Assembly (NCBI RefSeq): GCF_036241575.1
Contig: NZ_CP108455.1
Coordinates: forward strand, 3,282,001-3,346,000
Source of the DNA: Streptomyces sp. NBC_01267
Lineage (GTDB): Bacteria > Actinomycetota > Actinomycetes > Streptomycetales > Streptomycetaceae
Length of the DNA stretch: 64,000 nt
Direction of reading: 5' to 3'
Shown piece by piece: positions 15,341-49,476 of this stretch (positions are counted from its first letter, which is position 1; every line of letters starts with the position of its first letter). The notes beneath the pieces are model-generated. The model made no database searches, was not told where the DNA came from, and worked only from the letters and a program-made list of their open reading frames with translations. Position numbers and translations under genes: made by a program.

Positions 15341-15355
15341 CTGACGGTACGTCAG
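15341..15355. promoter_or_regulatory. CTGAC-N5-GTCAG operator (doxX-DUF35 operon)
   Basis: CTGACGGTACGTCAG, a perfect dyad with arms CTGACG/CGTCAG. It is 42 bp before the doxX start and 112 bp before the divergent monooxygenase gene. The same motif recurs at six other places in the window before acyl-CoA or redox genes; the spacing is typical of a TetR-family operator. Confidence 0.7.
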
Positions 15356-15467
15356 TTCAGCCGATGGAAGGTGTCGCGCGCAAGGGGCGTGCAGGCGTGA
15401 TCGATTCGCAACCGGTTGTGACCTTGACCGTGACCTATCAACGGAATGGGCGGTTACGCTCCGATTC

Positions 15468-16607
15468 ATGGACGACACGAACGACGCCCGGCCCGTCTAC
15501 GTCATCGGCGCCGGACCGGGTGGCCTGGCCGTTGCCGCCGCGCTGCGCGACCAGGGAGTACGGGCCGTCGTACTGGAGAAGTCCGACGCCGTCGGGGCCT
15601 CCTGGCGCCGCCACTACAACCGGCTGCACCTACACACCACCCGGCGGCACTCGTCCCTGCCGGGGCTGCGGATGCCGCGCTCCTTCGGGCGCTGGGTGGC
15701 GCGCGAGGACGTCGTGCGGTACCTGGAGACGTACGCGCGGCACCAGGAGCTGGAGATCGTCACGGGGGTCGAGGTCTCCCGCATCACCCCCGCCGAGGGC
15801 TCCGGCTGGCTGCTGCACGCCACCGGTGGACGGCAGTTGAACGGGCGCGCGGTGGTCGTGGCCACCGGCTACAACCACACCCCGGCGCTGCCGGACCGGG
15901 CGGGCGCGGACACGTACAGCGGGGAGCTGCTGCACGCGGGCGAGTACCGCGAGGCGGGTCCGTACGCGGGCCGGGACGTGCTCGTCGTCGGCGCGGGGAA
16001 CACCGGTGCGGAGATCGCCGTCGACCTGATGGAGGGCGGCGCGGCCCGGGTACGGCTGGCGATCCGTACGGTTCCGCACATCCTCCGGCGCTCGACGGCC
16101 GGGTGGCCCGCGCAGTACACCGGCATCCTGGTCCGCAGACTGCCGACCCGGCTGGTGGACCGGGCCGCCGGGCTGATGAGCCGGATCGCGGTGCCCGACC
16201 TCTCCGCGCAGGGGCTGCCGCGCCCCGACACCGGTCTGTACTCGCGGGTGCGCCAGGGGGCGATCCCCGTGCAGGACGTCGGGCTGATCGCCGCGGTGCG
16301 CACCGGACGGGTCGAACCGGTCGCGGCCGTGGACTCCTTCGACGGCGGCACGGTGGTCCTGGCCGACGGCGCCCGGATCCAACCGGACGCGGTGATAGCG
16401 GCGACCGGCTACCGGCGCGGACTGGAGCCGCTGGTGGGGCACTTGGGCGTACTGGACGGACGGGGGCGGCCGGTCACGCACGGGCGCCGCACGCCGAAGC
16501 AGGCGCCGGGGCTCTACTTCACCGGGTTCACCAACCCGATCAGCGGGATGCTCCGCGAGCTGGCCATCGACGCGCGGAAGATCGCTTCGGCCATCGCCCG
16601 GCGGTGA
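15468..16607 (+). CDS. Flavin-containing monooxygenase-like NAD(P)/FAD oxidoreductase
   Basis: 379 residues. FAD-binding Rossmann motif G-A-G-P-G-G at 14-19 with the acidic end VVLEKSD; substrate-side SWRRHYNRLHLHT; central ATGYNHTP; the second dinucleotide motif G-A-G-N-T-G for NADPH; and a second ATGYRRG near the C-terminus followed by PGLYFTGFTNPISGML. This layout is that of small FMO/YUC-type oxygenases. ATG 15468 follows a short intergenic region shared with doxX, so it may fall under the 15341 operator. The substrate is not predictable; oxidation of a carbonyl or thioether is typical. Confidence 0.85.
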   Translation: MDDTNDARPVYVIGAGPGGLAVAAALRDQGVRAVVLEKSDAVGASWRRHYNRLHLHTTRRHSSLPGLRMPRSFGRWVAREDVVRYLETYARHQELEIVTGVEVSRITPAEGSGWLLHATGGRQLNGRAVVVATGYNHTPALPDRAGADTYSGELLHAGEYREAGPYAGRDVLVVGAGNTGAEIAVDLMEGGAARVRLAIRTVPHILRRSTAGWPAQYTGILVRRLPTRLVDRAAGLMSRIAVPDLSAQGLPRPDTGLYSRVRQGAIPVQDVGLIAAVRTGRVEPVAAVDSFDGGTVVLADGARIQPDAVIAATGYRRGLEPLVGHLGVLDGRGRPVTHGRRTPKQAPGLYFTGFTNPISGMLRELAIDARKIASAIARR

Positions 16608-16682
16608 GCACGGCGCTACCGGCCCGGCCCGACGGGCGCCGCCCCGTCACCCGCCCCGTCACTCGCCCTGCCAGCCGCCCTG

Positions 16683-17312
16683 TCAGCCCAGGCGGCGCAG
16701 GAAGGATTCGACCAGCCGGTCGGTGAAGTCCTTGCCGACCGGCTCGTCCGTGACCAGGACGCGGTAGTAGAGCGGGCCCACGATCTGGTCGGTCTCGGCG
16801 GCCACGTCGAGGTCCGCGGGCAGCTCCCCGCGCAGTACGGCGCGCTCCAGCGGCGCACGGTCGCGGCGGCGCTGCTCGTCGAGGTACCTGGCCCGGAAGA
16901 CCTCGGCGAACGCCGGGTCGTGCTGGCTCTGTGCCATCAGCGCCTTGAAGACGGCCCCGGGATCGGTCCCGCCGAGGAAGTGGCCCAGCCGGCCCAGGTG
17001 ATCGCTCAGGTCGCGCGCGACATCGCCGTGGTCGAGCGAAGGCGGCTCCTCCGCCACATCCTGCAGGAAGGCGTCCATCAGGACCTCGGTCTTGGTGCGC
17101 CACCAGCGGTAGATGGTCTGCTTGGCTACCCCGGCCCGCGCCGCGATGCCCTCCATCGTGACGCCCGCGAAGCCCTTCTCGGCGAGCAGGTCGTCGGCCG
17201 CCTCCAGCACCGCGAACCGGGCGATCTCGCTGCGCCCGTGCCGATTGCCGTGGTGGCGTCGGCCCGACGTACCGACGGCCCCACCCCGGGCGGATCCTGC
17301 CGCAACTCCCAT
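16683..17312 (-). CDS. TetR-family transcriptional regulator
   Basis: 209 residues. ATG 17312 with GGAGG four bases upstream; the open frame extends further up without sense. The helix-turn-helix lies at about 30-75 (FAVLEAADDLLAEKGFAGVT, IAARAGVAKQTIYRWWRTKT), followed by a TetR_C-type ligand domain ending RLVESFLRRLG. It is divergent from the MFS gene at 17436, with a 32-bp interrupted palindrome between them, the normal design for a TetR repressor controlling an exporter and itself. Its operator differs from CTGAC-N5-GTCAG, so it is probably not the regulator of the acyl-CoA genes. Confidence 0.9.
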   Translation of the reverse strand: MGVAAGSARGGAVGTSGRRHHGNRHGRSEIARFAVLEAADDLLAEKGFAGVTMEGIAARAGVAKQTIYRWWRTKTEVLMDAFLQDVAEEPPSLDHGDVARDLSDHLGRLGHFLGGTDPGAVFKALMAQSQHDPAFAEVFRARYLDEQRRRDRAPLERAVLRGELPADLDVAAETDQIVGPLYYRVLVTDEPVGKDFTDRLVESFLRRLG

Positions 17313-17346
17313 GGCGCCTCCCTTTACCCCAGGATAGTCAGCCGCC

Positions 17347-17378
17347 CTAGACCTCACGCAACGGTGCGTCTACTCTAG
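17347..17378. promoter_or_regulatory. 32-bp bipartite palindrome between TetR and MFS genes
   Basis: Outer arms CTAGA (17347-17351) and TCTAG (17374-17378) and inner arms ACGCA (17356-17360) and TGCGT (17365-17369) are spaced by exactly four bases each, centred on ACGG. It lies in the divergent promoter region. A TetR dimer-of-dimers operator is the simplest reading. Confidence 0.7.
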
Positions 17379-18891: not shown

Positions 18892-18930
18892 CTGACGGGC
18901 CGTCAGTTCAGTAACCTGACTAAGTGTCAG
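18892..18930. promoter_or_regulatory. Two tandem CTGAC-N5-GTCAG operators
   Basis: CTGACGGGCCGTCAG at 18892-18906 and CTGACTAAGTGTCAG at 18916-18930, centre to centre 24 bp apart; the second is extended to AACCTGAC...GTCAGGTT (18913-18933). They lie before the NDP-forming acyl-CoA synthetase. The second one covers the GTG at 18924, which argues against that codon as the start. Confidence 0.75.
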
Positions 18931-18965: not shown

Positions 18966-21191
18966 ATGCTTGGATCGACTCACGGCACCCTCACCACCGA
19001 CTTCCGTGCGCGCGTGGTGGCCTGCGGGGAGCAGCCCCCCGTCGCCGTCCACGGCACGGCAGCAGCGGAAGGCGACCTGGATGTCAGCGGACGCCCGCTG
19101 TACGCGTCCGTGCCCGACCTGGACCGGTTCTTCCGGCCCGAGTCGGTGGCCGTCATCGGCGCGTCCGACGCCGAAGGGCGGCCCAACACCGGGATCACCC
19201 GCCAGCTGATGGCCTGGTCGGAACGGGTGGGCGCCCGGCTGTTCCCCGTACATCCGACGCGCGAGTCGGTCTTCGGCATCCCCTGCTCGCCCACCGTGGC
19301 CGCGCTGCCCGAACAGGTCGACCTGGCCGTCCTGCTGGTCGCCGACCCACTGCCGGTCATCCAGCAACTGGCCGAGGCCAAGGTGAAGTTCGCGGTGGCC
19401 TTCGCCTCCGGGTTCGCCGAGACCGGCGAGGAGGGCGCGAGCGCCCAGACCCGGCTGACGGCGGCCGTGGAGCGCTCGGGCCTGCGGCTGCTGGGCCCGA
19501 ACACCAATCTCAACGCCTTCGAGAAGTTCCGCGACGACCTGGAGGGCCCGGCGGTCGCGCTGATCACCCAGTCCGGCCACCAGGGCCGCCCGGTCTTCGC
19601 CATGCAGGAGCTGGGCATACGCCTCTCGCACTGGGCGCCCACCGGCAACGAGGCCGACCTGGAGACCTCCGACTTCATCTCGTACTTCGCCGAGCGCCCC
19701 GAGGTCGGGGCCATCGCGTGCTACGTCGAGGGCCTGAAGGACGGCCGTTCCTTCCTGCTCGCCGCGGACCGGGCGGCGCGCGCGGGGGTGCCGGTGGTCG
19801 CGGTCAAGGTGGGGCGTACGGAGCTTGGCGCCAGGTCGGCCGCTTCCCACACCGGCAAGCTCACCGGCGCGGACCAGGTGGTCGACGCGGCCATGCGGCA
19901 GTTCGGGGTGGTCCGGGTGAACGGGCTGGACGAACTCCAGGACACCTCCGCCCTGTTGGCCCGTGCCAGGAAGCCGCAGGCCGAAGGCGTGGTGGTCTAC
20001 TCGATCTCTGGCGGCACGGGTGCGCACTTCGCCGACCTGGCGACGGCGGCGGGCATCGCGCTGCCGACGCTGTCCGCCGACAAGCAGGACGAGCTGCACA
20101 CCTGGATCCCGGAGTACCTGAACGTCGCGAACCCCGTCGACAACGGCGGCCACCCGGTGGGCGACTGGCGCGGCCGGAAGATCATCGACGCGATTCTCGC
20201 CGACCCGGAGGTGGGGGTCCTGATCTGTCCGATCACCGGCCCGTTCCCGCCGATGAGCGACAAACTGGCCCAGGACCTGGTGGACGCGGCCGAGGCCACG
20301 GACAAGCTGGTGTGTGTGGTGTGGGGGTCGCCGGTCGGCACCGAGGAGGCGTACCGCACGACGCTGCTCGGCTCGTCCCGGGTGGCCACCTTCCGTACCT
20401 TCGGCAACTGCGTCACCGCGGTGAAGGCGTACCTGGACCACCACCGCTTCACCGCCCACTACACCTCCCCCTTCGACGAGGCGCCCCGCACCCCGTCCCC
20501 CTCCTTCCGCAAGGCGCAGGCCCTGATGCGCCCGAACCAGCAGCTCAGCGAGCACGCGGCGAAGCAACTGCTACGGGCGTACGGGATCCGCGTCCCGCGC
20601 GAACAGCTGGTGACGAGCGCCGCCGCCGCGGTACGGGCGGCCGGTCTCGTCGGCTACCCGGTCGTCATGAAGGCGTCGGGGGCGCAGCTGGCCCACAAGA
20701 CCGAACTCGGCCTGGTGAAGGTCGGGTTGACCTCGGCCAGCCAGGTGCGGGACGCGTACCGCGAGCTGACCGACATCGCCCGGTACGAAGGGATCGAACT
20801 GGATGGCATCCTGGTCTGCCAGATGGTGGAACGCGGGGTGGAGATGGTCGTGGGCGTCACCACGGACGCCCTGTTCGGCCCGACGGTGACGGTCGGCCTG
20901 GGCGGCGTCCTGGTCGAACTGCTCGGCGACACAGCGGTGCGGGTGCCCCCGTTCGGCGAGGACCAGGCACGGGCGATGCTCGGCGAACTGCGCGGCCACC
21001 CGCTGCTGGAGGGCGGGGTACGGGGGGCGCCGCCGGCGGACGTGGACGCGCTGGTGGAGGTGGTGCTCCGGGTGCAGCGGATGGCGCTGGAGCTGGGGGA
21101 CCAGCTGGCGGAACTGGATGTGAATCCGCTGATGGTGCTGGGACGCGGGCAGGGGGCGGTGGCGCTGGACGCGCTCGCGGTGTGCCGGTGA
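18966..21191 (+). CDS. Acyl-CoA synthetase, NDP-forming (acetate-CoA ligase type)
   Basis: 741 residues from ATG 18966. A GTG at 18924 is open but lies within an operator. The order is CoA-binding Rossmann domain (FRPESVAVIGASDAEGRPNT), succinyl-CoA-synthetase-like flavodoxin domains with the SHTGKLTGAD segment carrying the probable phospho-His, then an ATP-grasp domain (LLRAYGIRVPRE, YPVVMKASGAQLAHKTELGL). Such fused alpha-beta proteins convert carboxylates to CoA thioesters with ATP or GTP, giving NDP and phosphate; in actinobacteria some act on aromatic or branched acids. Two CTGAC-N5-GTCAG operators precede it, linking it to the catabolic regulon inferred here. Confidence 0.9.
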   Translation: MLGSTHGTLTTDFRARVVACGEQPPVAVHGTAAAEGDLDVSGRPLYASVPDLDRFFRPESVAVIGASDAEGRPNTGITRQLMAWSERVGARLFPVHPTRESVFGIPCSPTVAALPEQVDLAVLLVADPLPVIQQLAEAKVKFAVAFASGFAETGEEGASAQTRLTAAVERSGLRLLGPNTNLNAFEKFRDDLEGPAVALITQSGHQGRPVFAMQELGIRLSHWAPTGNEADLETSDFISYFAERPEVGAIACYVEGLKDGRSFLLAADRAARAGVPVVAVKVGRTELGARSAASHTGKLTGADQVVDAAMRQFGVVRVNGLDELQDTSALLARARKPQAEGVVVYSISGGTGAHFADLATAAGIALPTLSADKQDELHTWIPEYLNVANPVDNGGHPVGDWRGRKIIDAILADPEVGVLICPITGPFPPMSDKLAQDLVDAAEATDKLVCVVWGSPVGTEEAYRTTLLGSSRVATFRTFGNCVTAVKAYLDHHRFTAHYTSPFDEAPRTPSPSFRKAQALMRPNQQLSEHAAKQLLRAYGIRVPREQLVTSAAAAVRAAGLVGYPVVMKASGAQLAHKTELGLVKVGLTSASQVRDAYRELTDIARYEGIELDGILVCQMVERGVEMVVGVTTDALFGPTVTVGLGGVLVELLGDTAVRVPPFGEDQARAMLGELRGHPLLEGGVRGAPPADVDALVEVVLRVQRMALELGDQLAELDVNPLMVLGRGQGAVALDALAVCR

Positions 21192-25190: not shown

Positions 25191-25967
25191 CTACTCCGGG
25201 TTGCTGACCCGGATCTTCGACTGGCCGTGCTTGCGGGTCTCCCAGTCGTCCATGAACCGGCCGCGCAGCCCCCGCTTCTCGGCCAGCGCGATCAGTGTCC
25301 CGGTGCGGTAGTAGAAGTCCTCCCGCAGTACCTGGTGTTCGGTCCCCTCGGTCCGGTCGAAGGTGAAGTCGAAGAAGCCGCCGGGTGCCAGGATGCGGCC
25401 GACGTGGGAGAAGCACTCGTCGATGACGTCGAGCGGCGAGTGCGAGAAGACGCTGTGCGCGTGCACCACGTCGAAGTGGGCGTCCGGGAGGAATTCCAGC
25501 TTCAGGTTCTGGGTGATGGTCAGGTGCGGCAGCTTCGCCTGGAGGTTGTACCTGGTCAGGGTCTCCTTGGCGGATATGAGGATGTCGGGCGAGATGTCGA
25601 TGCCGTAGTAGTGGCCGCTGTCCAGGTAATCGATGAAGCGCCAGCCCGCACGGAGGTTGCCGCAGCCGATGTCGAGCATCCGGTGCGCGGGAGTGAGCCC
25701 GTGCTCGCCGAGGTAGTCGAACTGCATCTTGCCGAGCGCCAGCCACCGGTCGTGGGTCTGGCTGCCGACGGCCGCCTCCGGGTTGCGGGCAGTGTCGGAG
25801 GCCATGACGGCGCGGTAGTAGTCGACGTGGTTCGGGTGCTTGATACGGAGCCAGCTGTCCCGCGCGGTCCGCTTCACGTACGGCGCGACCCGAGCGGGAT
25901 TCATCACTGCATAACGGACCTTGTGGGACAAGCTGGTTCGGTTTTTGAGCATGGCTTTGGACGACAC
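25191..25967 (-). CDS. Class I SAM-dependent methyltransferase
   Basis: 258 residues from GTG 25967, which has GGAGG eight bases upstream. Motif I is RMLDIGCGNLRAGWRFIDYL (about 96-115), motif post-I YYGIDISPDI, and motif IV/V VHAHSVFSHSPLDVIDECFS and RILAPGGFFDFTFD. Residues 1-60 (KNRTSLSHKVRYAV, VKRTARDSWLRIKHP) are basic and may bind a membrane or glycan. Similar proteins occur in cell-surface glycan clusters but nothing nearby supports that. Function unknown. Confidence 0.8.
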   Translation of the reverse strand: MSSKAMLKNRTSLSHKVRYAVMNPARVAPYVKRTARDSWLRIKHPNHVDYYRAVMASDTARNPEAAVGSQTHDRWLALGKMQFDYLGEHGLTPAHRMLDIGCGNLRAGWRFIDYLDSGHYYGIDISPDILISAKETLTRYNLQAKLPHLTITQNLKLEFLPDAHFDVVHAHSVFSHSPLDVIDECFSHVGRILAPGGFFDFTFDRTEGTEHQVLREDFYYRTGTLIALAEKRGLRGRFMDDWETRKHGQSKIRVSNPE

Positions 25968-26013
25968 GGTGCGGACCTCCGAGGTGACGGCGGGTGTGGT
26001 GTGACGTGCGTAC

Positions 26014-26045
26014 GGATGGACGGGTGGACGGATGGACGGGTGGAC
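26014..26045. repeat. 16-bp tandem repeat, two units
   Basis: GGATGGACGGGTGGAC at 26014 and 26030, followed by G-rich degenerate sequence to about 26100, between the methyltransferase start and the end of the ABC permease gene. Confidence 0.85.
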
Positions 26046-26119
26046 GGGGAGGCAGAGACGGGGAAACGGAGACGGGCGGGCGGGGACGGGGCTGAGTCGG
26101 GCCGGCCCCGGGACCCGTC

Positions 26120-27079
26120 CTAGAAGCGCCGGCCGCGCAGCCTCACGACGATCAGCGCGATCAGCGCCACGGCCAGCACCAGGAAGACGGCCGACTCGAT
26201 CGCCTGCAAGGACCAGAAGTCGCTGCTGGGATAGACCTTGTAGAAGCGGCCGACATAACCGTGTTCAGCCATGCACCGCTTGAGTTCGGCGCCCGAGAAC
26301 TCGCAGTTGACGATCCCCTCGTGCTTGCCGGACGGGGTGAGGTATCCCCAGTCCCCGGCGGACCTGGCGCTGCCGATCAGCGCCTTGGGCTGCATACCGG
26401 GGCTGGTCCGGGTGAGCGGGGTGAGCCAGCCGAGGTGGAAGCGGCACGCGTCCAGTACGGCGCGGACGCCCAGGACGACGACCAGCGTCACCCCCATCGC
26501 GGGCAGCACCCGGCGCACCAGCAGCCCGGCCGCGGTTCCGGCGGCGAGGCCGAAGAGGGCGCCGGCCACGGCGGCCGGGCCGGTGGCGTCGAAGATGGCG
26601 CTGTCGTACCAGTAGGGGCCGTCGAGCATGTTGGAGATCGGCGCCCACCACCAGGCGACGAGCCCGGCGAACGCGGCCGAGCCCACCACCGTGCAGAGCG
26701 CGGCGAGACCGAAGCGGGAGACGAACCAGCGGACCGGTCCCACGCCCTGGGTGAGCGCCAGCCGGTAGGTGCCGCTCTCCAGCTCGCGGCCGATCAGGGG
26801 CGCACCCCAGAAGAGGCCGATGAGCACCGGCAGGGCCGCGCTGATCCAGCCGAGCATCCTGATGTGGTCGGCGTGGGTGTAGAGCAGTTCGAGAACGTAC
26901 GGGCTGTCGACGCAGGGGCCGTTCCACCCCTTGCAGAGAGCGACGTGATGACTGTCGATGAACGACGTCATGTCCGCGCGCTGCAGCGCGACATAGAGCG
27001 CGCAGGCCGCGACGACGACCACGCCGACGGCTATCTGGATGCGCTGCTGGCGCCAGGCCAGCCAGAGGGTGCCCCTCAC
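26120..27079 (-). CDS. ABC-2 type permease
   Basis: 319 residues from GTG 27079, which overlaps the stop of the ATPase gene (GTGA). Six hydrophobic segments are visible; the first follows MRGTLWLAWRQQRIQIAV. A large extracytoplasmic loop with two Cys pairs (CKGWNGPCVDS, CEFSGAELKRCM) is consistent with a YtrC/ABC2 membrane subunit. GRELESGTYRLALTQGVGPVR is the signature of this permease class. It forms one operon with the ATPase and the GntR regulator. Confidence 0.8.
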   Translation of the reverse strand: MRGTLWLAWRQQRIQIAVGVVVVAACALYVALQRADMTSFIDSHHVALCKGWNGPCVDSPYVLELLYTHADHIRMLGWISAALPVLIGLFWGAPLIGRELESGTYRLALTQGVGPVRWFVSRFGLAALCTVVGSAAFAGLVAWWWAPISNMLDGPYWYDSAIFDATGPAAVAGALFGLAAGTAAGLLVRRVLPAMGVTLVVVLGVRAVLDACRFHLGWLTPLTRTSPGMQPKALIGSARSAGDWGYLTPSGKHEGIVNCEFSGAELKRCMAEHGYVGRFYKVYPSSDFWSLQAIESAVFLVLAVALIALIVVRLRGRRF

Positions 27080-28014: not shown

Positions 28015-28526
28015 TCTTCTTCCTCCAATGAGTCCGGCTCCGACGAGTCCGGCTTCGATGAGCCCGGCTTCGATGAGCGCGGCTTCGACGAGCGCGGGGA
28101 GTCCTGGGAACGCGGGGTGCCCTGGGAGCGCGGGATGTTCTGGGTACGCGGATGGCTCTCGTCCAGCGCGTCGGCCACCAGGGCCGTCACGTCCTCGCGT
28201 TCGAGCCCGGCCTCGCGGGCCCGCGCCAGCCAGTCGGCAAGCTCCGCGCGGAGCGGGGAGCCCGCCGCGGCCTCCGGTCTGGAGAGCGAGCGGGACACGA
28301 AGGTCCCCTTGCCGGGCCGTGGCTCGACGAGCCCTTCCCGCTCCAGCTCGCGGTAGGCCTTGAGCACGGTGTTGGGGTTGATCGCGGTGGCCTCCACCAC
28401 CTGCCGGGTCGTGGGGAGCCGGTCCCCCGGCTCCAGTGCGCCGAGGCGCAGCGCGGTCTTCACCTGATGGACGATCTGCAGGTACGTGGCGACCCCGCTG
28501 TGCCGGTCGATCCGGAATGCGACCAT
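28011..28526 (-). CDS. GntR-family (YtrA-type) regulator
   Basis: 171 residues from ATG 28526; GTG 28532 with GGAG five bases upstream may be the real start. Winged HTH at about 10-75 (YLQIVHQVKTALRLGALEPG, PTTRQVVEATAINPNTVLKA). The short C-terminus carries a low-complexity tail (about 130-171) with PRSQ repeats, SSKPx repeats and a final EEEE. A 24-bp palindrome precedes it (28547-28570), doubtless its own operator. It heads an operon with an ABC ATPase and permease. Confidence 0.88.
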   Translation of the reverse strand: MVAFRIDRHSGVATYLQIVHQVKTALRLGALEPGDRLPTTRQVVEATAINPNTVLKAYRELEREGLVEPRPGKGTFVSRSLSRPEAAAGSPLRAELADWLARAREAGLEREDVTALVADALDESHPRTQNIPRSQGTPRSQDSPRSSKPRSSKPGSSKPDSSEPDSLEEEE

Positions 28527-28546
28527 CTCCACCCTCTCTCCACCCT

Positions 28547-28642: not shown

Positions 28643-28657
28643 CTGACGCACCGTCAG
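28643..28657. promoter_or_regulatory. CTGAC-N5-GTCAG operator (flavin reductase)
   Basis: CTGACGCACCGTCAG ends 16 bp before the flavin reductase ATG and just upstream of its GGAGG. It would block the promoter or early elongation if bound. Confidence 0.7.
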
Positions 28658-28673: not shown

Positions 28674-29279
28674 ATGGGACACGCAGGGATGGCGGTCGCC
28701 GCCGTCCGATACCTCAGGTCCGTGGGCGCCCCGACGACGGCACAGCCGGTCGACCCGCTCCCCCGCCCCGACCTGCGGGCCGTCGCGGACGACGAGCGGC
28801 TGCCGGTGGACCCGGCCGAATTCCGCCGCGTACTGGGCAACTTCGCCAGCGGCGTCACGGTCATCACGGCCACCGACGCCGACGGCCCGACCGGCTTCGC
28901 CTGCCAGTCGTTCGCCTCACTGTCCCTGGACCCGCCACTGGTCGCGTTCATGGTCGCCCGTACGTCGACGACCTGGCCGCGCATCGCCCGCGCCGGAACC
29001 TTCTGCGTCAACATCCTGGGCGCGGACCAGGGCCCACTGTGCCGCGGCTTCGCGGTGAGCGGCGCGGACAAGTTCGCGGGCGTCGTCCACACCCCCGCGC
29101 CCGTGACGGGCGCACCGCTGCTCGCGGACGTACCGGCCTGGATCGACTGCCGCATCCACGCCGTGCACACGGGCGGCGACCACCTGATCGTGGTGGGCCG
29201 GGTGGAGGCACTGGGCGGCACGGGCGAGGGTGTGCCGCTGCTGTTCCACCAGGGGAAGTTCGGCCGCTTCACGGCCTGA
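28674..29279 (+). CDS. Flavin reductase (HsaB/HpaC-type)
   Basis: 201 residues from ATG 28674 with GGAGG four bases upstream. FMN-binding split barrel: DPAEFRRVLGNFASGVTVIT, GFACQSFASLSLDPPLVAFM, and GTFCVNILGADQ, the hallmark of two-component flavin monooxygenase reductases. It would supply reduced FMN or FAD to a partner oxygenase; HsaB of steroid ring degradation is a typical relative. No large oxygenase subunit is next to it. A CTGAC-N5-GTCAG operator overlaps its leader, so it is placed in the inferred catabolic regulon. About 43 residues precede the conserved fold. Confidence 0.85.
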   Translation: MGHAGMAVAAVRYLRSVGAPTTAQPVDPLPRPDLRAVADDERLPVDPAEFRRVLGNFASGVTVITATDADGPTGFACQSFASLSLDPPLVAFMVARTSTTWPRIARAGTFCVNILGADQGPLCRGFAVSGADKFAGVVHTPAPVTGAPLLADVPAWIDCRIHAVHTGGDHLIVVGRVEALGGTGEGVPLLFHQGKFGRFTA

Positions 29280-40665: not shown

Positions 40666-41715
40666 TCAGAACGTCAGGACCCCGCGTGCCACCCGCCCGT
40701 GCTCCGCGTCGTCCACCGCCTTCGCGAAGTCCTCCACCGGGTAGGTCTCCGTCACCAGTTCGTCGAGCAGCAGCCGCCCCTGCTGGTACAGCCCGGCGTA
40801 CAGCGGAATGTCCCGCTGCGGGCGCGAGGCCCCGTACCGGCAGCCCAGGATCGACTTGTCCAGGAACATCGACGACACCAGGAACGACGCCTCCGCCGTC
40901 GCGGGCGGGGTACCCAGCATGATCGCCTGGCCGTGCCGGTCGAGGAGGTCGATGGCCTGGCGGATCAGCTCCACCCGGCCCACGCACTCGAAGGCGTGGT
41001 CGGCGCCCTTGGGCAGGATCTCCCGTACGCCCTCCACCGACGTCAGGAAGTGCGTCGCCCCGAACTGCCGGGCCACCGCCTCCTTGTCGGGGTTCGCGTC
41101 GACCGCGACGACGGTCGCCGCGCCCGCGATCCGCGCGCCCTGGAGGACGTTGAGGCCGATGCCGCCGGTGCCGATGACCACCACGGAGTCGCCGCGGTCG
41201 ACCTTCGCCCGGTTCAGTACCGCCCCCACACCCGTCAGTACCCCGCAGCCGATCAGGGCGGCCGAGGTCAGCGGGATGTCCTGGGGGATCTTGACGGCCT
41301 GGACCGCCTTGACCACCGTGCGTTCGGCGAAGGCCGAGTTGGACGCGAACTGGTACAGCGGTTGGCCACCGCGCGAGAACGGCTGCCCCGGTCGGCCGAT
41401 CGCCTTGCGGCACATCGTCGGGCGGCCCCGGTCGCAGTCCGCGCACGCGCCGCAGTTGGCCAGCGTGGACAGCGACACGTGGTCACCAGGCGCCACGTGC
41501 TTCACGCCCGCCCCGACCGCCTCGACGACGCCCGCGCCCTCGTGGCCGAGAACGACCGGTGCGGGAAAGGGAATCGTCCCGTCGATCACGGACAGATCGC
41601 TGTGGCAGAGACCGGCCGCCGCGATGTCCACCAGGACCTCGCCGGGCCCCGGGTCACGTATCTCCAGGTCGTCGACCACCCGGGCCTGCTTGCCGTCGAA
41701 GACGACACCCCTCAT
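40666..41715 (-). CDS. Zinc-dependent alcohol dehydrogenase (MDR, class III-like)
   Basis: 349 residues. Catalytic zinc ligands C37 (GLCHSD) and H58-E59 (LGHEGAG); structural zinc Cys at 88, 91, 94 and 102; NAD-binding GTGGIGLNVLQG at about 182-193. The sequence resembles Rv-type mycobacterial and rhodococcal NDMA/acyl alcohol dehydrogenases found in catabolic operons. ATG 41715 overlaps the stop of the acyl-CoA dehydrogenase gene (ATGA), so it is the third gene of an SDR-ACAD-ADH operon. It would oxidise an alcohol intermediate; the substrate is unknown. Confidence 0.88.
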   Translation of the reverse strand: MRGVVFDGKQARVVDDLEIRDPGPGEVLVDIAAAGLCHSDLSVIDGTIPFPAPVVLGHEGAGVVEAVGAGVKHVAPGDHVSLSTLANCGACADCDRGRPTMCRKAIGRPGQPFSRGGQPLYQFASNSAFAERTVVKAVQAVKIPQDIPLTSAALIGCGVLTGVGAVLNRAKVDRGDSVVVIGTGGIGLNVLQGARIAGAATVVAVDANPDKEAVARQFGATHFLTSVEGVREILPKGADHAFECVGRVELIRQAIDLLDRHGQAIMLGTPPATAEASFLVSSMFLDKSILGCRYGASRPQRDIPLYAGLYQQGRLLLDELVTETYPVEDFAKAVDDAEHGRVARGVLTF

Positions 41716-42950
41716 CTCGGCTCCCTCGGTAGGCCGAGCACCCGCTCGGCGATGATGGTGCGCTGGATCTCGTCCGAGCCGCCGTAGATCGTGTCGGCCC
41801 GGCTGAAGAGGAACTGGCTCTGCTGTGCGTCGAGTCGGTACGGGTTCGCCGGCTCCCAGTCGTACGGTCCGACGGCGCCGCCCGCCCCCTGCACCTGTAC
41901 GGCCAGCTCGCCGAGACGCTGGTGCCAGCCGCCCCAGAGCAGCTTGGCCACGCTCGGGGCGCCGACGTCGTCGGTGCGGCCCAGGGTGCGCAGGGCGTTC
42001 CAGCGCATCGTGCGCAGCTCGGCCCACTGGCGTACCAGCCGGTCGCGCAGCACCGGGTCGTCGGCGGCCCCGGACGTGACGGCGGTGCGCACCACCTCGG
42101 CCAGTTCGGCGGCGAAGCCGATCTGCTGGACGAGTGTGGAGACCCCGCGCTCCAGCGCGAGCAGGCCGGTGGCGACGCGCCAGCCGTTGCCCTCGCCGCC
42201 GACCACGCAGTCCGCCCGCGCACCGTCGAAGAAGACCTCGTTGAACTCGCTGGTGCCGGAGAGCTGGCGGATCGGCCGTACGTCGATCCGGCCCGGCTGG
42301 TCCATCGGGACCAGCAGGAACGACAGCCCCCGGTGGCCGCGGCTGCCCGCCTCGGTGCGGGCCAGTACGAAGCACCAGTCGGCCTCCCGGGCGAGCGAGG
42401 TCCAGATCTTCTGGCCGGTGACGCGGTAGCCGCCGCCCCCGTCCGGTACGGCGGCGGTGCGCACCGCCGCCAGGTCGGAACCGGCGCCCGGCTCGCTGTA
42501 GCCCTGGCACCAGAGGGCCTCGCCACGGGCGATCGGCGGCAGGAAGCGGGCCCGCTGTTCGTCGTCGCCGAAGGCGATGAGGGTGGGGGCGAGCAGGTTC
42601 TCGCCGATGTGGCCGACCCGGCCGGGGGCGCGGATCCTGGCGTACTCCTCGGCCCAGACGACCTGTTGGGTGAGGGTGGCGCGCCGGTTCCCGTACGGGC
42701 CACGGCCCGTACCGGCCGGGCCTTCGCCCTGACCGGCGCCGCCCCGGCCTTCGCCGTCCCAGCCGATGCCGACCCAGCCGCCCGCGCCCAGTTCGCGTTC
42801 CCAGGCGCGGCGCAGCTCCGGTGCCTCGTGTTCGGTGCCGGGTCCGCCGATGGATTCGGCGGCGGTGAACTCGCCCACGAAGTGGCTTTCGAGCCAGGCG
42901 CGGGCCTCCGCGCGGAAGGCGCTGTCCTCAGGCCCGGGGGTGAAGTCCAC
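41712..42950 (-). CDS. Acyl-CoA dehydrogenase with Gly-rich insertion
   Basis: 412 residues from GTG 42950 (GGAGGAG seven bases upstream). Acyl-CoA dehydrogenase fold: WCQGYSEPGAGSDLAAVRT and GQKIWTSLAREADWCFVLAR, followed by LERGVSTLVQQIGFA and DTIYGGSDEIQRTIIAERVL at the C-terminus. Residues about 64-88 are a Gly-rich insert (GEGRGGAGQGEGPAGTGRGP) at the place where relatives have GRG-LPLL. It belongs to the FadE family used in steroid or branched-acid breakdown. It is in an operon with the ADH and, probably, the SDR gene (56-bp gap). Confidence 0.88.
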   Translation of the reverse strand: MDFTPGPEDSAFRAEARAWLESHFVGEFTAAESIGGPGTEHEAPELRRAWERELGAGGWVGIGWDGEGRGGAGQGEGPAGTGRGPYGNRRATLTQQVVWAEEYARIRAPGRVGHIGENLLAPTLIAFGDDEQRARFLPPIARGEALWCQGYSEPGAGSDLAAVRTAAVPDGGGGYRVTGQKIWTSLAREADWCFVLARTEAGSRGHRGLSFLLVPMDQPGRIDVRPIRQLSGTSEFNEVFFDGARADCVVGGEGNGWRVATGLLALERGVSTLVQQIGFAAELAEVVRTAVTSGAADDPVLRDRLVRQWAELRTMRWNALRTLGRTDDVGAPSVAKLLWGGWHQRLGELAVQVQGAGGAVGPYDWEPANPYRLDAQQSQFLFSRADTIYGGSDEIQRTIIAERVLGLPREPR

Positions 42951-43006
42951 GGTGCGCCTCCTCCACGGGAGCGTGCGGGCGACCGGCTCGGCGGACGGCC
43001 GCCGGA

Positions 43007-43921
43007 TCACCCATTGGGCCGCTCCTTCGCCGCCGCCGCCCGCGCCATCTCCTCCAGCTGGGCCAGCATCGGCATCGGGTCCACCCCCACCGTCCCCGGC
43101 AGGAAGTCCGCGATCCGCTCGGGCGTCCAGGGCGCGCCCTCCGCGTAACCGGCCCGCAGCTCCCTCGGCTGGGCCCAGACCGCGATCTTCGGGCCCGCGA
43201 TCGTGTACACCTGGCCGGTGATCTTCTCCGCGCGCGCCCGGTCGGAGAGCAGGTACGTCACCAGGGCGGCCACATCCTCCGGTTCGCCGATCTCCTTCAG
43301 CTCCATGGGTACGTTCGCGGACATCCGGGTCCGGGCCACCGGGGCCACCGCGTTCGCGGTCACGCCGTACTTGTTGAGGCCGAGCGCCGCACTGCGGACC
43401 AGCGAGATGATGCCGCCCTTGGCCGCGCTGTAGTTGGCCTGGGCGACGCTGCCCTGGTGGTTGCCGCTGGTGAAGCCGATGAGGGTGCCCGAGCCCTGTT
43501 TGCGCATCACCGCCGACGCGGCCCGGAAGACGGTGAACGTGCCCTTCAGATGGGTGGCGACCACCGGGTCCCACTCCTCCTCGGACATGTTGAAGAGCAT
43601 GCGTTCGCGGAGGATCCCGGCGACGCACACGACGCCGTCGATCCGCCCGTACCGCTCCAGTGCGACATCGACGATCCGCTGACCGCCCGCCATCGTCGAG
43701 ATGTCGTCGGCGACCGCGACCGCTTCGCCGCCCGCCGCCTCGATCTCCTTGACGACGGACTCGGCGACCTCGCTGGCGGGTTCACCTCCCTCGATGGAGA
43801 CGCCGTAGTCGTTGACGACGACCTTCGCGCCCTCGGCTGCGGCGGCGCATGCGACCGCCCTGCCGATGCCACGCCCGGCACCTGTCACGGCGATGACTTT
43901 GCCTGCCAAGAAGTTCCCCAT
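43007..43921 (-). CDS. Short-chain dehydrogenase/reductase
   Basis: 304 residues. NAD(P)-binding TGAGRGIG at 13-20, catalytic Y164-x3-K168 in QANYSAAKGGIISL, with the active-site Ser in GFTSGNHQGS. The extended C-terminus (WTPERIADFLPGTVGVDPMP) is typical of 3-hydroxyacyl-CoA dehydrogenases of the MFE-2/HSD17B4 type without its hydratase domain. It would oxidise a 3-hydroxyacyl-CoA. ATG 43921 lies 22 bp from a near-match CTGAC-N5-GTTAG operator shared with the divergent cyclase gene, and heads the SDR-ACAD-ADH operon. Confidence 0.9.
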   Translation of the reverse strand: MGNFLAGKVIAVTGAGRGIGRAVACAAAAEGAKVVVNDYGVSIEGGEPASEVAESVVKEIEAAGGEAVAVADDISTMAGGQRIVDVALERYGRIDGVVCVAGILRERMLFNMSEEEWDPVVATHLKGTFTVFRAASAVMRKQGSGTLIGFTSGNHQGSVAQANYSAAKGGIISLVRSAALGLNKYGVTANAVAPVARTRMSANVPMELKEIGEPEDVAALVTYLLSDRARAEKITGQVYTIAGPKIAVWAQPRELRAGYAEGAPWTPERIADFLPGTVGVDPMPMLAQLEEMARAAAAKERPNG

Positions 43922-43943: not shown

Positions 43944-43958
43944 CTGACGGACCGTTAG
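43944..43958. promoter_or_regulatory. Near-consensus CTGAC-N5-GTCAG operator (SDR/cyclase)
   Basis: CTGACGGACCGTTAG, one mismatch from the dyad. It lies between divergent genes, 22 bp from the SDR start and 47 bp from the cyclase start, and can control both. Confidence 0.6.
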
Positions 43959-44005: not shown

Positions 44006-44932
44006 ATGTCCCTGCCGGCGGAATTCCACGACATCGCCAAACGCGTGAACAACTGGGGGCGTTGGGGCTCCGAGGACCAGATCGGCACCCTGAACCTGAT
44101 CACCGACGAGGTCGTACGGGAGGCCGCGGCGACCGTGCGCACCGGCCGCCGGATCCCCCTCGCGATACCGCTGGAGCACGACGGCGTACAGACCGGCATG
44201 ATCCCGGGGCGGGTGAACCCGCTGCACGCGATGGTCCAGATCAACCAGGAGCTCTTCGGCCCCGGCACCGTCGCCACCAGCGACGACATCGTGACGATGA
44301 GCCTCCAGACGGCGACCCACTGGGACGCGCTCACCCATGCGTCGCACTCCGGGAAGATCTACAACGGCCGCCCCGCGACCTCCGTCACCGCGCACGCGGG
44401 AGCCGAGTTCAGCGGGATCGGGACCGTGCGGCACCTGGTCTCGCGCGGCGTACTGCTGGACGTGGCGCGCGCCCGGGGCGTGGACCGCCTGGAGGGAGGT
44501 CATGCGGTGACGCCCGAAGATCTGGAGGCGGCGGAGGAGTTCGGCGGAGTCAAGGTGCGCGCCGGGGACGTCGTGCTCGTACGGACCGGTCAGATGCAGC
44601 TCTACCTGGGCGGCGACAAGCACGGCTACACCTATCCGTCGCCGGGACTGTCCGTCCGTACGCCGGAGTGGTTCCACGCCAGGGATGTCGCCGCGGTCGC
44701 CAACGACACCGTCACGTTCGAGGTGTTCCCGCCCGAGATCGAGGATCTCTGGATGCCCGTGCACGCCCTGGACCTGGTGGAGATGGGCATGCTCCAGGGC
44801 CAGAACTGGAATCTCGAAAAGTTGTCCACAGCCTGTGCAGAAGAGCGGCGGTACGCCTTCCTGCTCACCGCGACACCCGAACCCTTCGCGGGTGGCACGG
44901 GATCACCGGTCGCGCCGGTGGCCGTCCTGTGA
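44006..44932 (+). CDS. Cyclase-family hydrolase (kynurenine formamidase-like)
   Basis: 308 residues from ATG 44006 with TGGAGG five bases upstream. The metal-binding motif is H105-W-D107-x3-H111-x2-H114 (THWDALTHASHSG), as in the formamidase-like cyclase family (Pfam Cyclase). The fold continues with GVLLDVARARGVDRL and GDVVLVRTGQM. Members hydrolyse amides or lactones or open rings. It is divergent from the SDR operon and shares its operator, so ring-opening of a catabolic intermediate is possible. It is longer than KynB (about 210 residues). Confidence 0.85.
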   Translation: MSLPAEFHDIAKRVNNWGRWGSEDQIGTLNLITDEVVREAAATVRTGRRIPLAIPLEHDGVQTGMIPGRVNPLHAMVQINQELFGPGTVATSDDIVTMSLQTATHWDALTHASHSGKIYNGRPATSVTAHAGAEFSGIGTVRHLVSRGVLLDVARARGVDRLEGGHAVTPEDLEAAEEFGGVKVRAGDVVLVRTGQMQLYLGGDKHGYTYPSPGLSVRTPEWFHARDVAAVANDTVTFEVFPPEIEDLWMPVHALDLVEMGMLQGQNWNLEKLSTACAEERRYAFLLTATPEPFAGGTGSPVAPVAVL

Positions 44933-45985: not shown

Positions 45986-46960
45986 TCACAACCGGGACGC
46001 GACCAGTTCCTCGGCCTCGGCCGCGGTGATCCACTGCCCGGCCCTGACCCAGGCCCGCTTCAGGTGGAGATGAACATCTGCCTCCCAGGTGAATCCCATA
46101 CCGCCGTGGACCTGGAGACAGTCCCGGGCGTTACGGACGGCCGCGTCGTCGGCGAGCAGCTTCGCACCGGCCGCCTCGTACGCGTCGGGCACGCACGCGC
46201 CCGTCACGTCCGCCTCGTCCGCCGCCGCCTCGGCGGTGACGGCAGCCGCGTACACGGCCGCCCTGGCGATCTCGGTCCGTACCAGCATCTGCGCGCACAG
46301 ATGTTTGACGGCTTGGAATGCTCCGATGGGCTGTCCGAACTGTTCGCGCTGCCGGGCGTGTTGGACGGCCAGCTCGGTGGTGCGGGCGGCGCTGCCGAGC
46401 TGGAGCGCCGCCGTCAGCAGCGCCGCGGTCAGCGCGGTCGCGTCCGGTGGCAGCGTCAGGGTCACCACGTTCGTGCCCGGCGGCAGGACCACGTCCGGCC
46501 CGGCGGTCCGTTCCCCGCCCACCCGGTGCAGCGGGGTCAGCGGGTCCACCGACCGGATGGGGCGGGCGTCCTGGGCGAGGTCCTGGCCCAGCACGTCGTC
46601 GGCTTCCGCCAGCCACTCCACCAGGGCGCCGTCCGACGCGGTGACCACCGCCTCCCCGGTGTCGGCGCCCGGCACCGCGCCGGCCGCGAGGTGCGTGGCG
46701 ACCAGCGGGCCCGGCAGCAGCGCCCGCCCCGCCTCCTCGAAGACGAGTACGGCCTCGGGCAGTCCGAGCCCGACACCGCCCCGCGCCTCGGGGAGCCGCA
46801 GCGAGAACAGCCCGGCGTCGCCCAGCTCCCGCCACAGCGCCCGGTCCAGGGTGCCCCGGTCCACGGCCGCCCGCAGTGCCTCCCGGTCGAAGCGTCCGGC
46901 GAGCAGCTCGCGGAAGCCGTTGCGCAGGGCCAGTTGATCGTCGGTGAGCCGGAAGTCCAT
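45986..46960 (-). CDS. Acyl-CoA dehydrogenase, short subunit (FadE27/29-like)
   Basis: 324 residues, shorter than single-chain acyl-CoA dehydrogenases (about 380). It starts MDFRLTDDQLALRNGFRELL and ends with CLQVHGGMGFTWEADVHLHL, where the conserved ACAD C-terminus is. The central ligand region is simplified. Such short forms pair with a full-size ACAD as alpha2-beta2 heterotetramers in steroid side-chain oxidation. ATG 46960 overlaps the stop of the next ACAD gene (TGATG), as expected for a co-translated pair. A typical catalytic Glu cannot be assigned with certainty. Confidence 0.85.
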   Translation of the reverse strand: MDFRLTDDQLALRNGFRELLAGRFDREALRAAVDRGTLDRALWRELGDAGLFSLRLPEARGGVGLGLPEAVLVFEEAGRALLPGPLVATHLAAGAVPGADTGEAVVTASDGALVEWLAEADDVLGQDLAQDARPIRSVDPLTPLHRVGGERTAGPDVVLPPGTNVVTLTLPPDATALTAALLTAALQLGSAARTTELAVQHARQREQFGQPIGAFQAVKHLCAQMLVRTEIARAAVYAAAVTAEAAADEADVTGACVPDAYEAAGAKLLADDAAVRNARDCLQVHGGMGFTWEADVHLHLKRAWVRAGQWITAAEAEELVASRL

Positions 46961-48123
46961 CAGCGCCCCTTGGGGAGGCCGAGGATGCGCTCGGCGACGA
47001 TGTTCTGCTGGATCTGCGAGGTACCGGCGGCGATCGTGTACGAGAGCGAGGACAGCCGGTCCTGGTTCCAGGGGTGCGAGAGGTCCAGCGCGTCCGGTCC
47101 CAGCACCTCGGCAGCCACCTCGTACAACTCCTGGCGGGCGTGCGAGTAACGGAGTTTGAATACCGAACCACCGGTACCCGGCACCCCGCCGCTGCGCTGG
47201 GCCTCGCTCACGTTCCACTGGGTGAGCCGCCACAACGCGGCGAACTCGGCGCCGATCCTGCCCAGTCGGCGGCGGAGCACGGTGTCGGACCAGCGGCCGT
47301 TCTCCCGTGCGGCGCGCGCCAGTTCGCCCAGCGCGCGGCGGCAGGCGACCACTTCGCCGACGAAGGCGGTGCCGCGTTCGAAGGACAGGGTCACCATGGT
47401 GACGCGCCAGCCGTCGTTCTCCTCGCCGACCCGGTCGGTCACCGGGATCCGTACCTCGTCGAGGAACATCTCGGCGAACTCGGTGGATCCGGCGAGGGTC
47501 CGCAGCGGCCGTACGGTCACGCCGGGCGCGTCCATCCGCATCGCCAGCCAGGTGATCCCCCGGTGCTTGGGGACGCTCTCGCTGACCGGCTCGGTACGGA
47601 CCAGCAGTTCGCACCAGTCCGCGACCTCGGCGTGCGAGGTCCAGATCTTGGACCCGCTGACCACGTAGTGGTCGCCGTCGCGGACCGCGCGGGTCCGCAG
47701 CGAGGCCAGGTCGGAGCCCGCGTCCGGTTCGCTGAACCCCTGGCACCAGATCTCGTCGCCGCGCAGCACCGGCGGCAGCCAGCGGGCCCGCTGCTCGGCG
47801 GTGCCCTCGGCGGCGACGGTCGGGCCCGCGTGCAGCAGCCCGACGAAGTTCGCCCCGACGTACGGCGCCCCGGCCCGCTCCGTCTCCTCCAGGAAGATCA
47901 GGTGCTGGGTGGGGGTGGCGCCGCGCCCGCCCGCGTCGGCGGGCCAGTGCAGCCCCGCGTACCCGGCGTCGTACAGCATCCGCTGCCACGCCGTGTCGTA
48001 CGCCCGCCGTCCCGGCCAGTCCAGCGGATCCGGCGCGGGCGGCAGCGTCGGGAGGGCCTTGGCCAGCCACTCCTTCAGCTGCCCGCGGAAGACCTCCTCC
48101 TCCGCCGTGGACGTGAGGTCCAT
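46960..48123 (-). CDS. Acyl-CoA dehydrogenase, long subunit (FadE26/28-like)
   Basis: 387 residues. FAD/substrate motifs IWCQGFSEPDAGSDLASLRT and SGSKIWTSHAEVADWCELLV, central LSFERGTAFVGEVVACRRAL and the C-terminal YTIAAGTSQIQQNIVAERIL. It is the larger partner of the ACAD at 45986, with start and stop overlapping by one base, and it is itself coupled (TGATG) to the amidohydrolase gene. I propose a heteromeric FadE complex. Order in the transcript: amidohydrolase, long ACAD, short ACAD. Confidence 0.88.
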   Translation of the reverse strand: MDLTSTAEEEVFRGQLKEWLAKALPTLPPAPDPLDWPGRRAYDTAWQRMLYDAGYAGLHWPADAGGRGATPTQHLIFLEETERAGAPYVGANFVGLLHAGPTVAAEGTAEQRARWLPPVLRGDEIWCQGFSEPDAGSDLASLRTRAVRDGDHYVVSGSKIWTSHAEVADWCELLVRTEPVSESVPKHRGITWLAMRMDAPGVTVRPLRTLAGSTEFAEMFLDEVRIPVTDRVGEENDGWRVTMVTLSFERGTAFVGEVVACRRALGELARAARENGRWSDTVLRRRLGRIGAEFAALWRLTQWNVSEAQRSGGVPGTGGSVFKLRYSHARQELYEVAAEVLGPDALDLSHPWNQDRLSSLSYTIAAGTSQIQQNIVAERILGLPKGR

Positions 48124-49334
48124 CAGCGGCCGGTCCTGCCCGGCTTGTCGAAGTCGAGGTCCAGCATGCGGATCGCGTTGCCGCGCATCAGCTTGTAGAC
48201 GGTCTCGTCGTCGAGCCCCTTGACGTGCTCCAGGGCGACCTCCTTGGTGTTCGGGAAGGTCGAGTCGACGTGCGGGTAGTCCGTCTCGAAGGTGGCGTTG
48301 TCCCGGCCGACGGTGTCCAGCGACGCGACCCCGTGCATGTCGCGGAAGAAGCAGCAGAAGATCTGCCGGTAGTAGTACGTCGACGGCGGCTCGGGGATCA
48401 GGTCCTTCACCCCGCCCCAGGCCCGGTGCTCCTGCCAGACGTCGTCGGCGCGCTCCAGGGCGTACGGGATCCAGCCCATCTGGCCCTCGCTGTACGCCAG
48501 CTTGAGCGCCGGGAACTTCACCAGCACCCCGGAGAACAGGAAGTCCATCATCGACGCCATCGCGTTGTTGAACGACAGCGAGGCCTGCACCGCGGGCGGT
48601 GCGTCCGGGGAGGCGGCGGGCATCTGCGAGGACGAGCCGATGTGCATGTTGACGACGGTCCCGGTCTCCTCGCAGACCGCGAAGAACGGGTCCCAGTACC
48701 CGGAGTGGATCGACGGCAGCCCCAGATAGGTGGGGATCTCGCTGAACGTCACCGCCCGCACCCCGCGCGCGGCGTTTCGCCGGATCTCGGCGACCGCGAG
48801 GTCGATGTCCCAGAGCGGTATCAGGCAGAGCGGGATCAGCCGGCCGCCGCTGTCACCGCACCACTCCTCGACCATCCAGTCGTTGTAGGCGCGGACGCAG
48901 GCGAGCGCGACCTCCTTGTCGTGCGCCTCCGCGAAGGTCTGGCCGCAGAAGCGCGGGAAGGTCGGGAAGCAGAGCGAGGCCTCGACGTGGTTGAGGTCCA
49001 TGTCCTTCAGCCGCGCGGCCGGGTCCCAGCAGCCGCGCCGCATCTCGGCGCGGGTGATGCCCTCCAGGGTCATCTCGTCGCGGTCGAAGCCGACGGCGGC
49101 GATGTTGCGCTTGTACGGGAACTTCAGGTCCTCGTAGATCCACCAGTCGGTCGGCGGGCCCGCCGGGTCCATGGTGATCTGGTACTTCCCCGCCACATAG
49201 GCCAGCTCGCCGATGCCCGCCGTCAGCGGCTTCGGCCCGCGGTCCCGGTACTTCGCGGGCAGCCAGGTCTCGAAGAGATGCGCCGGTTCGATCACATGGT
49301 CGTCGACGCTGATGATCCGGGGCAGTTCGGTCAT
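48123..49334 (-). CDS. Amidohydrolase family (Amidohydro_2, ACMSD-like)
   Basis: 403 residues. Metal-dependent TIM-barrel hydrolase: ISVDDHVIEPAHLFETWLP at the N-terminus, where ACMSD-type enzymes have the first metal motif; VVNMHIGSSSQMP in the middle; and FETDYPHVDSTFPNTKEV near the end. The family includes decarboxylases and ring-cleaving hydrolases of CoA catabolism. ATG 49334 lies 50 bp downstream of a near-consensus CTGAC-N5-GTCAG operator, opposite the acyl-CoA ligase gene. It heads an operon with the heteromeric ACAD pair, and may open a ring or decarboxylate the acid. Confidence 0.85.
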   Translation of the reverse strand: MTELPRIISVDDHVIEPAHLFETWLPAKYRDRGPKPLTAGIGELAYVAGKYQITMDPAGPPTDWWIYEDLKFPYKRNIAAVGFDRDEMTLEGITRAEMRRGCWDPAARLKDMDLNHVEASLCFPTFPRFCGQTFAEAHDKEVALACVRAYNDWMVEEWCGDSGGRLIPLCLIPLWDIDLAVAEIRRNAARGVRAVTFSEIPTYLGLPSIHSGYWDPFFAVCEETGTVVNMHIGSSSQMPAASPDAPPAVQASLSFNNAMASMMDFLFSGVLVKFPALKLAYSEGQMGWIPYALERADDVWQEHRAWGGVKDLIPEPPSTYYYRQIFCCFFRDMHGVASLDTVGRDNATFETDYPHVDSTFPNTKEVALEHVKGLDDETVYKLMRGNAIRMLDLDFDKPGRTGR

Positions 49335-49383
49335 GGTGTCCCTTCCGGCGTATCCGGTGGCCGGACATCCGGTGCGCGGATAT

Positions 49384-49476
49384 CTGATGGCCCGTCAGAA
49401 ACCAGGCTAGCCCCGACCCTCTGGACCGACAAGGCACAGAGCCCTACGCTCTCCGCACGATCTGACTACCCGTCAG
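49384..49476. promoter_or_regulatory. Two CTGAC-N5-GTCAG operators in divergent promoter
   Basis: CTGATGGCCCGTCAG at 49384-49398 (one mismatch) is 50 bp before the amidohydrolase start; CTGACTACCCGTCAG at 49462-49476 is 31 bp before the acyl-CoA ligase start. One site serves each divergent gene. Confidence 0.7.

Follow-up and report, generated by a model that had tools for sequence, protein, structure and literature searches.

Which protein reads an inverted repeat that recurs before catabolic genes in a stretch of 64,000 nucleotides (nt) from Streptomyces sp. NBC_01267, hereafter the window? The repeat was searched for as CTGAC-N5-GTCAG (the dyad), and a sequence-only reading of the window had joined seven copies of it into one control unit for which a TetR-like repressor was expected. 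The dyad is very probably the operator of a single TetR-family repressor of the SCO4421 type, which would control about 20 catabolic promoters together with its own gene and would be released by a coenzyme A (CoA) thioester. We infer binding, repression and the class of ligand from computed features, namely the presence of the sites at promoters and their conservation, the site of autoregulatory type, the co-occurrence of TetR gene and motif, and the gene neighbourhoods.

The dyad in the window and across the genome

All seven copies were found where the sequence-only reading had put them, five exact and two with one mismatch (Table 1), and the nearest called starts are 16-59 bp away, within the 16-75 bp that it had given. 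The five exact copies compare with a mean of 0.07 and a maximum of 1 in 60 first-order Markov simulations, and the non-coding share of the window is about 14%. When exact half-sites were paired at spacers of 0-12 nt, a spacer of 5 gave five copies and each other length none or one. With up to two mismatches allowed, the window showed no excess of dyads (34 against 41 expected), and four further one-mismatch copies missing from the earlier reading (1332, 32970, 54851 and 63549) all lie within called genes.

The genome scan proposed with that reading gave 41 exact dyads in 8.07 Mb, versus 2 for a reversed control string. At up to one mismatch the numbers were 409 and 190, and with A/T flanks and preferred spacer edges added they were 75 and 11. 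Ten exact dyads lie between 3.229 and 3.332 Mb, five of these in the window. The copies are not similarly frequent inside genes: 28 of the 41 are outside genes and within 300 bp upstream of a start (22 of the 28 within 75 bp), eight are intragenic and five lie elsewhere, neither in a gene nor that close upstream of one. For this placement we relied on our own gene calls, supplemented manually by one amidohydrolase gene that the gene caller had overlooked. By our own count of Pfam and NCBIfam matches, 22 of the 28 promoter-type sites adjoin a CoA-ester, lipid or redox gene, the types being enoyl-CoA hydratase (ECH), AMP ligases, SRPBCC, isochorismatase, PNPOx-type, DUF35, ferredoxin reductase, MaoC, thiolases, acyl-CoA dehydrogenases, LLM monooxygenases, SDRs and amidohydrolases. 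That no copy precedes unrelated genes is accordingly true of the window but not of the genome, where, besides the eight intragenic copies, the other six sites adjoin genes for an HNH protein, an MreB-like protein, a Pfam-less pair, a POR-type oxidoreductase, a LuxR protein and one unscanned product. The single control unit is supported by promoter placement and by the bias towards catabolic genes, but its scale is genome-wide and not local. Eighteen further one-mismatch places were retrieved, 11 in genes and seven outside (again by our own calls); among the seven, acyl-CoA dehydrogenase and nitronate-monooxygenase genes fit the regulon and the other scanned ones do not. A weight matrix was built on 27 of the 41 exact sites, omitting the eight intragenic ones and those at L021, L037, L041, L043, L046 and L047 (L, G and f numbers are our labels for loci, genomes and families in the comparisons). 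At another locus, L026:6140-8245, a dyad lies 28 bp from the start of a 701-aa protein in which acyl-CoA dehydrogenase domains are repeated.

Conservation was followed in six other Streptomyces, in 60-kb stretches over the orthologous cluster. In 6/6 relatives a site lies no more than 300 bp before each of the genes for the synthetase, flavin reductase, SDR, cyclase and AMP ligase, with a mismatch in one relative each for the flavin reductase and the ligase. The amidohydrolase gene has one in all five relatives in which it was found, its best site being that of the AMP ligase in their shared region. A site stands at the DoxX promoter in the four relatives in which DoxX was found and before DUF35/FMO in the other two. 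Because the FMO-like orthologue has a site in only two of six relatives and lacks it in four, we treat this gene as a doubtful target. Half-sites stay while spacer letters drift between orthologous promoters; the 43944 dyad, for example, reads GTTAG instead of GTCAG here and in 6/6 relatives, with variable spacer letters. Eight site-free window genes with orthologues served as controls (TetR_C_11, g17436, g36303, g37639, g38696, g53642, g55141 and g60946) and scored at most 1.9 bits in the relatives; for the control genes g23289 and g29778 and for the GntR gene no orthologue was available for comparison. The pair of dyads before the synthetase gene was sought more widely. The synthetase was found in 45/61 genomes, 30 loci being given including our own (L117, which has no full-length match, is uncounted), and both members of the pair are present in 29/29 retrieved relatives, although one partner is degenerate (10 bits) in L267. 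Their spacing is 24 or 25 bp, and in L268 it is 35 bp, about one helical turn more.

Could such a dyad be a structural or processing element (a hairpin, terminator or repeat) that no single protein reads? The genomes of family f66 would fit, since they hold 232-473 exact dyads each and, in 400 kb of one of them, the copies lie nearer gene ends than starts. In our own genome, however, most exact copies stand upstream of starts and outside genes, and the spacer keeps its length while its letters drift. A stem of 5-7 bp is also short for a terminator. We consider this explanation very improbable.

A TetR-type candidate to the left of the window

The sequence-only reading had suggested looking for a TetR gene with the same dyad at its own promoter, and such a gene exists. 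It lies near afsK, about 2.2 kb to the left of where the window begins, and a 14.2-bit site (27-site matrix) overlaps its start. The missing regulator is probably this protein, judged by its sequence and its site. Its C-terminal domain matches PF19352 (TetR_C_38) with 249.7 bits against a cut-off of 23.9. The TetR_N helix-turn-helix match (C1:3279234-3279332) is weak, with 29.1 bits against a cut-off of 24, and is absent from a scan at E ≤ 1e-8. A confident predicted model has the all-helical TetR fold. The closest structure is EthR, at a low identity of 18%, and the phmmer match (E 2.3e-5) covers query residues 12-74 only. NCBIfam gave no name for the candidate.

In Streptomyces, a site overlaps the start of the TetR gene in 30/31 loci (L081 is without one) and in 80/80 named loci, almost always with identical letters. 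Family f3 has a site of at least 11.5 bits at the TetR gene in 14/14 loci. Among more distant homologues (34-57% protein identity), 22/31 loci have a site of at least 12 bits in the 400 bp upstream, where 0.047 per stretch would be expected. These 22 are not 22 independent cases, because they come from only five families (f44 1, f65 1, f66 5, f67 7 and f71 8), and in the f66 genomes the dyad is common anyway. At the f17 locus L058 (G064), the TetR gene is overlapped by an isochorismatase gene of the same orientation, and a 31-bit site stands 14 bp before the latter and 705 bp before the TetR gene, so that this site may head a common isochorismatase-TetR operon; the isochorismatase homologue in our genome also has a dyad.

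Homologues of the candidate were found in 16/198 genomes of a phylum sample (E ≤ 1e-20) and in 52/296 of a class sample (E ≤ 1e-25), including 28/28 Streptomyces. Of 19 chosen genomes 17 have one, and the two without have 3 and 6 exact sites. The helix-turn-helix letters TSxATFYQYF are invariant across 24 aligned sequences, namely the query and 23 chosen homologues (of 25 picked, L063 and L188 were omitted) that are 41-88% identical to it. Sites and TetR genes also tend to occur together. Exact sites per Mb are 3.0-8.0 in seven TetR-positive f67 genomes versus 0.3-5.8 in five negative ones (p 0.015), and 1.8-3.6 in six f71 genomes with a clear homologue versus 0-2.0 in 17 without (p 0.0007). 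Another three f71 genomes, in which the homologue is weak, have 1.3-1.5.

A different regulator might read the dyad, with the neighbouring TetR as a bystander or as one more target. The choices include the GntR protein encoded near 28643, the window's own TetR (TetR_C_11, 16683-17312), AfsR or an unlinked protein. A site lies 110 bp from the start of the GntR gene (28011-28532); this gene is followed by an ABC-transporter ATPase gene (span 25191-28532), divergent from the flavin reductase gene. The genome also holds at least 108 TetR_N matches (150 of 251 candidates scored), the neighbourhoods of which were partly searched for degenerate sites. Against this, no GntR orthologue was found in the compared stretch of 6/6 relatives and none of TetR_C_11 in 5/6, although the sites of these relatives are conserved, and the TetR_C_11 gene has no dyad in our genome. 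One dyad stands 189 bp before afsR and was considered as a link to antibiotic control, but this was dropped, as a divergent amidohydrolase gene (the one that the caller had initially missed) begins 30 bp from it and is the simpler target. Finally, both the co-occurrence with the candidate and the sites at its gene reach other families. We therefore regard a different reader as quite unlikely.

Several observations weigh against the candidate as the general reader of the dyad. In Streptomyces, the site at its own gene carries one mismatch and scores modestly, and coding constraint may contribute to the conservation of this site. The 400 bp upstream of the TetR gene are free of a site in 9/31 distant loci, including all three f17 loci. 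L188, which lies outside the alignment, differs at two helix-turn-helix letters and yet has a 14.3-bit site. The co-occurrence tests cover two families, are uncorrected for descent and have no other regulator as a control. Some TetR-positive genomes are poor in sites (G056 2, G254 5 and G089 6), and some in which no TetR homologue was detected are rich in them (G483 17, with 7 for the control; G501 16; G503 16; G369 15, at 68% completeness). Two Streptomyces, G496 (L085) and G462 (L078), keep the TetR gene with only 1 and 5 exact dyads. Lastly, in a sporulation study, deletion of SCO4421 in S. coelicolor, for which strain K319 is described, gave no detected phenotype (PMC3878966).

L085 and L078 also retain the site at the TetR gene itself. 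Because both genomes keep regulator and site despite having few dyads, the TetR may serve a core function in addition to controlling the large regulon.

We assign the candidate to the SCO4421 type by position, namely its place near afsK. Its presumed counterpart in S. avermitilis is SAV3818, which is cited as a positive regulator of avermectin production. In S. coelicolor, the same sporulation study identifies SCO4421 as the TetR gene near afsK and describes its promoter as active in spores and its expression as lower in a whiA mutant (PMC3878966). These features would suit a TetR that activates its targets, or one that mainly serves development or antibiotic control through the afsK/afsR neighbourhood. 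However, the sites are close to starts, as would be typical for repression, and the majority of targets are catabolic genes, so that we hold such a role to be unlikely.

Regulator neighbourhoods, known systems and the possible ligand

In the f65 locus and in all five of the f67 loci inspected, the TetR gene adjoins an ECH gene and two CoA-transferase-type genes. Proteins of 18 loci were compared by BLAST with proteins from the retrieved stretches (f67 loci L170 and L183 were not included), and these neighbours are 56-67% identical to the products of genes at locus L016 of our own genome. The first CoA transferase of L172 matches PDB 6co6 ("Probable CoA-transferase alpha subunit"), which we take to be IpdA of the steroid C/D-ring pathway; the names echA20, ipdA, ipdB and ipdC for neighbour genes are likewise our assumption. 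NCBIfam had no name for the CoA-transferase genes, and the L172 ECH had no PDB match at E ≤ 1e-30. We had also considered the L016-like neighbours of the f67 TetR as an mce operon, but rejected this, as the sequences and the PDB match indicate ECH and CoA-transferase genes. All eight f67/f65 loci have a matrix match (17-28 bits) 844-935 bp before the TetR start, and in L171, L172, L177, L178 and L179 it sits between the SDR start and the ECH start. Because the TetR adjoins ECH and CoA-transferase genes in these two families, our guess is that the ligand is a cyclic, steroid-ring-type CoA thioester.

On present sequence evidence, the candidate is best read as a repressor of the KstR kind that would control the catabolism of cyclic or steroid-type acyl-CoAs. 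KstR (Rv3574) is a mycobacterial TetR repressor of lipid and cholesterol genes, with 83 genes in M. smegmatis; it resembles the candidate in being a TetR protein, in the palindrome at its own promoter and in its large lipid-degradation regulon, but it is a different protein, and its operator core, TnnAACnnGTTnnA, differs from CTGAC-N5-GTCAG when compared by letters (PMC1995591). The f67 and f65 neighbourhoods resemble the HIP/ipdAB regulon of KstR2 in their echA20-ipdAB-type genes; EchA20 and IpdAB have been proposed to open the C/D rings, and HIP-CoA is the KstR2 effector (PMC5380842). However, the KstR2 homologue of our genome is a separate gene (L016:9572-10198), and KstR2 is not among the candidate's 10 PDB sequence matches at E ≤ 0.001. 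The motif of EthR is described as larger and multi-copy, not a classical short palindrome (PMC4482099). MftR is also a TetR repressor and has long-chain acyl-CoA as effectors, but its palindrome is T-N2-GGCA-N5-TGCC-N2-A and it was studied for the mycofactocin cluster (PMC8728441).

We propose that an unliganded TetR dimer would occupy the dyads, most of them no more than 75 bp before a start codon, and would thereby block about 20 catabolic promoters and its own. The inducer would be a CoA thioester formed from the substrate, which is probably an acid of cyclic, steroid-ring type. Its binding to the C-terminal domain would free the dimer and bring about joint expression of ligases, acyl-CoA dehydrogenases, SDRs, thiolase/DUF35 pairs and flavin enzymes. 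Among the literature matches listed for the dyad, for steroid/TetR and for SCO4421/SAV3818 topics, there is no report of the operator CTGAC-N5-GTCAG. The regulon looks unreported, though the kind of system is known. The proposal offers an operator, a regulon and a testable pathway for a regulator present in every Streptomyces genome of the class sample; if true, it would allow the acid-degrading operons of Streptomyces to be induced jointly and their substrate to be identified.

The L016 genes belong to a second catabolic cluster (L016:4722-14228), 2.8 Mb from the window, with the KstR2 homologue, an ECH, a CoA-transferase pair and acyl-CoA dehydrogenases. At L016:8001 (C1:505626), a 24.9-bit exact dyad lies inside a gene of this cluster that we named ipdC-like and not at a promoter.

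Genes at the window sites and dyad-rich genomes

The genes that would be controlled from the window sites, together with the dyads and the candidate regulator, are given in Table 1.

Table 1. Dyads, putative target genes and candidate regulator (window positions unless marked C1 or L033)
Feature	Position	Strand	Remarks
Dyad, exact	15341..15355		Between DoxX-DUF35 genes and FMO-like gene; 42 bp to DoxX start, FMO-like start 112 bp on opposite side
Dyad, exact	18892..18906		Distal member of pair, 24 bp apart, before acyl-CoA synthetase; 59 bp to start
Dyad, exact	18916..18930		Proximal member of the pair; 35 bp to start
Dyad, exact	28643..28657		Before flavin reductase; 16 bp to start
Dyad, one mismatch (GTTAG)	43944..43958		Between SDR and cyclase; 22 bp to SDR start, 47 bp to cyclase start
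Dyad, one mismatch	49384..49398		Before amidohydrolase; 49 bp to start
Dyad, exact	49462..49476		Before AMP ligase; 31 bp to start
Candidate TetR repressor gene	C1:3279147-3279794 (L033:17147-17794)	+	Start by own reading
Putative target: DUF35 / ChsH2-like OB-fold protein	14358..14849	-	PF01796, PF12172
Putative target: DoxX-like membrane protein	14846..15298	-	PF07681, 24.9 bits, cut-off 23.6
Doubtful target: FAD-dependent FMO-like oxidoreductase	15468..16607	+	PF00743, PF13738
Putative target: NDP-forming acyl-CoA synthetase	18966..21191	+	NCBIfam acetate/4-hydroxybutyrate-CoA ligase type, below cut-offs
Putative target: flavin reductase, HsaB-like	28674..29279	+	PF01613; best NCBIfam HsaB, below cut-off
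Downstream in SDR run: zinc alcohol dehydrogenase	40666..41715	-	Family match
Downstream of SDR: acyl-CoA dehydrogenase	41712..43010	-	Family match
Putative target: SDR oxidoreductase	43007..43921	-	Heads run with the two preceding genes; family matches
Putative target: putative cyclase	44006..44932	+	PF04199
Downstream in amidohydrolase run: acyl-CoA dehydrogenase, IpdE2-like	45986..46960	-	NF050027, below cut-off
Downstream of amidohydrolase: acyl-CoA dehydrogenase	46960..48123	-	Family match
Putative target: amidohydrolase (Amidohydro_2)	48123..49334	-	PF04909
Putative target: AMP-forming acyl-CoA ligase	49508..51037	+	PF00501

The dyad-rich f66 genomes (G245, G265, G280, G294 and G307; L189-L218 and L277-L296) have 2-7 copies of the control string each, and their TetR homologue keeps the aligned helix-turn-helix letters in a shorter protein. 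The 400 kb taken from G245 hold 24 copies at spacer 5, versus 0-2 at other lengths from 0 to 12. Nine of the 24 lie in genes. Seven are no more than 60 bp from a gene end and three no more than 60 bp from a start, the expected shares being 10% and 11%. A wider reading would make the TetR-operator pair an ancient actinobacterial one that, alongside KstR and KstR2, acts as a third master switch for steroid-ring-type acyl-CoA catabolism, with the shortened regulator in f66 and the spread of the dyad there, mostly to non-promoter places judging by the G245 sample, marking a genome-wide role there; this would be a doubtful extension of the proposal, with a small chance of being right. Outside f66, the highest numbers of exact dyads among the genomes counted are 92 and 95, in G033 and G035 of family f3 (genus g5).

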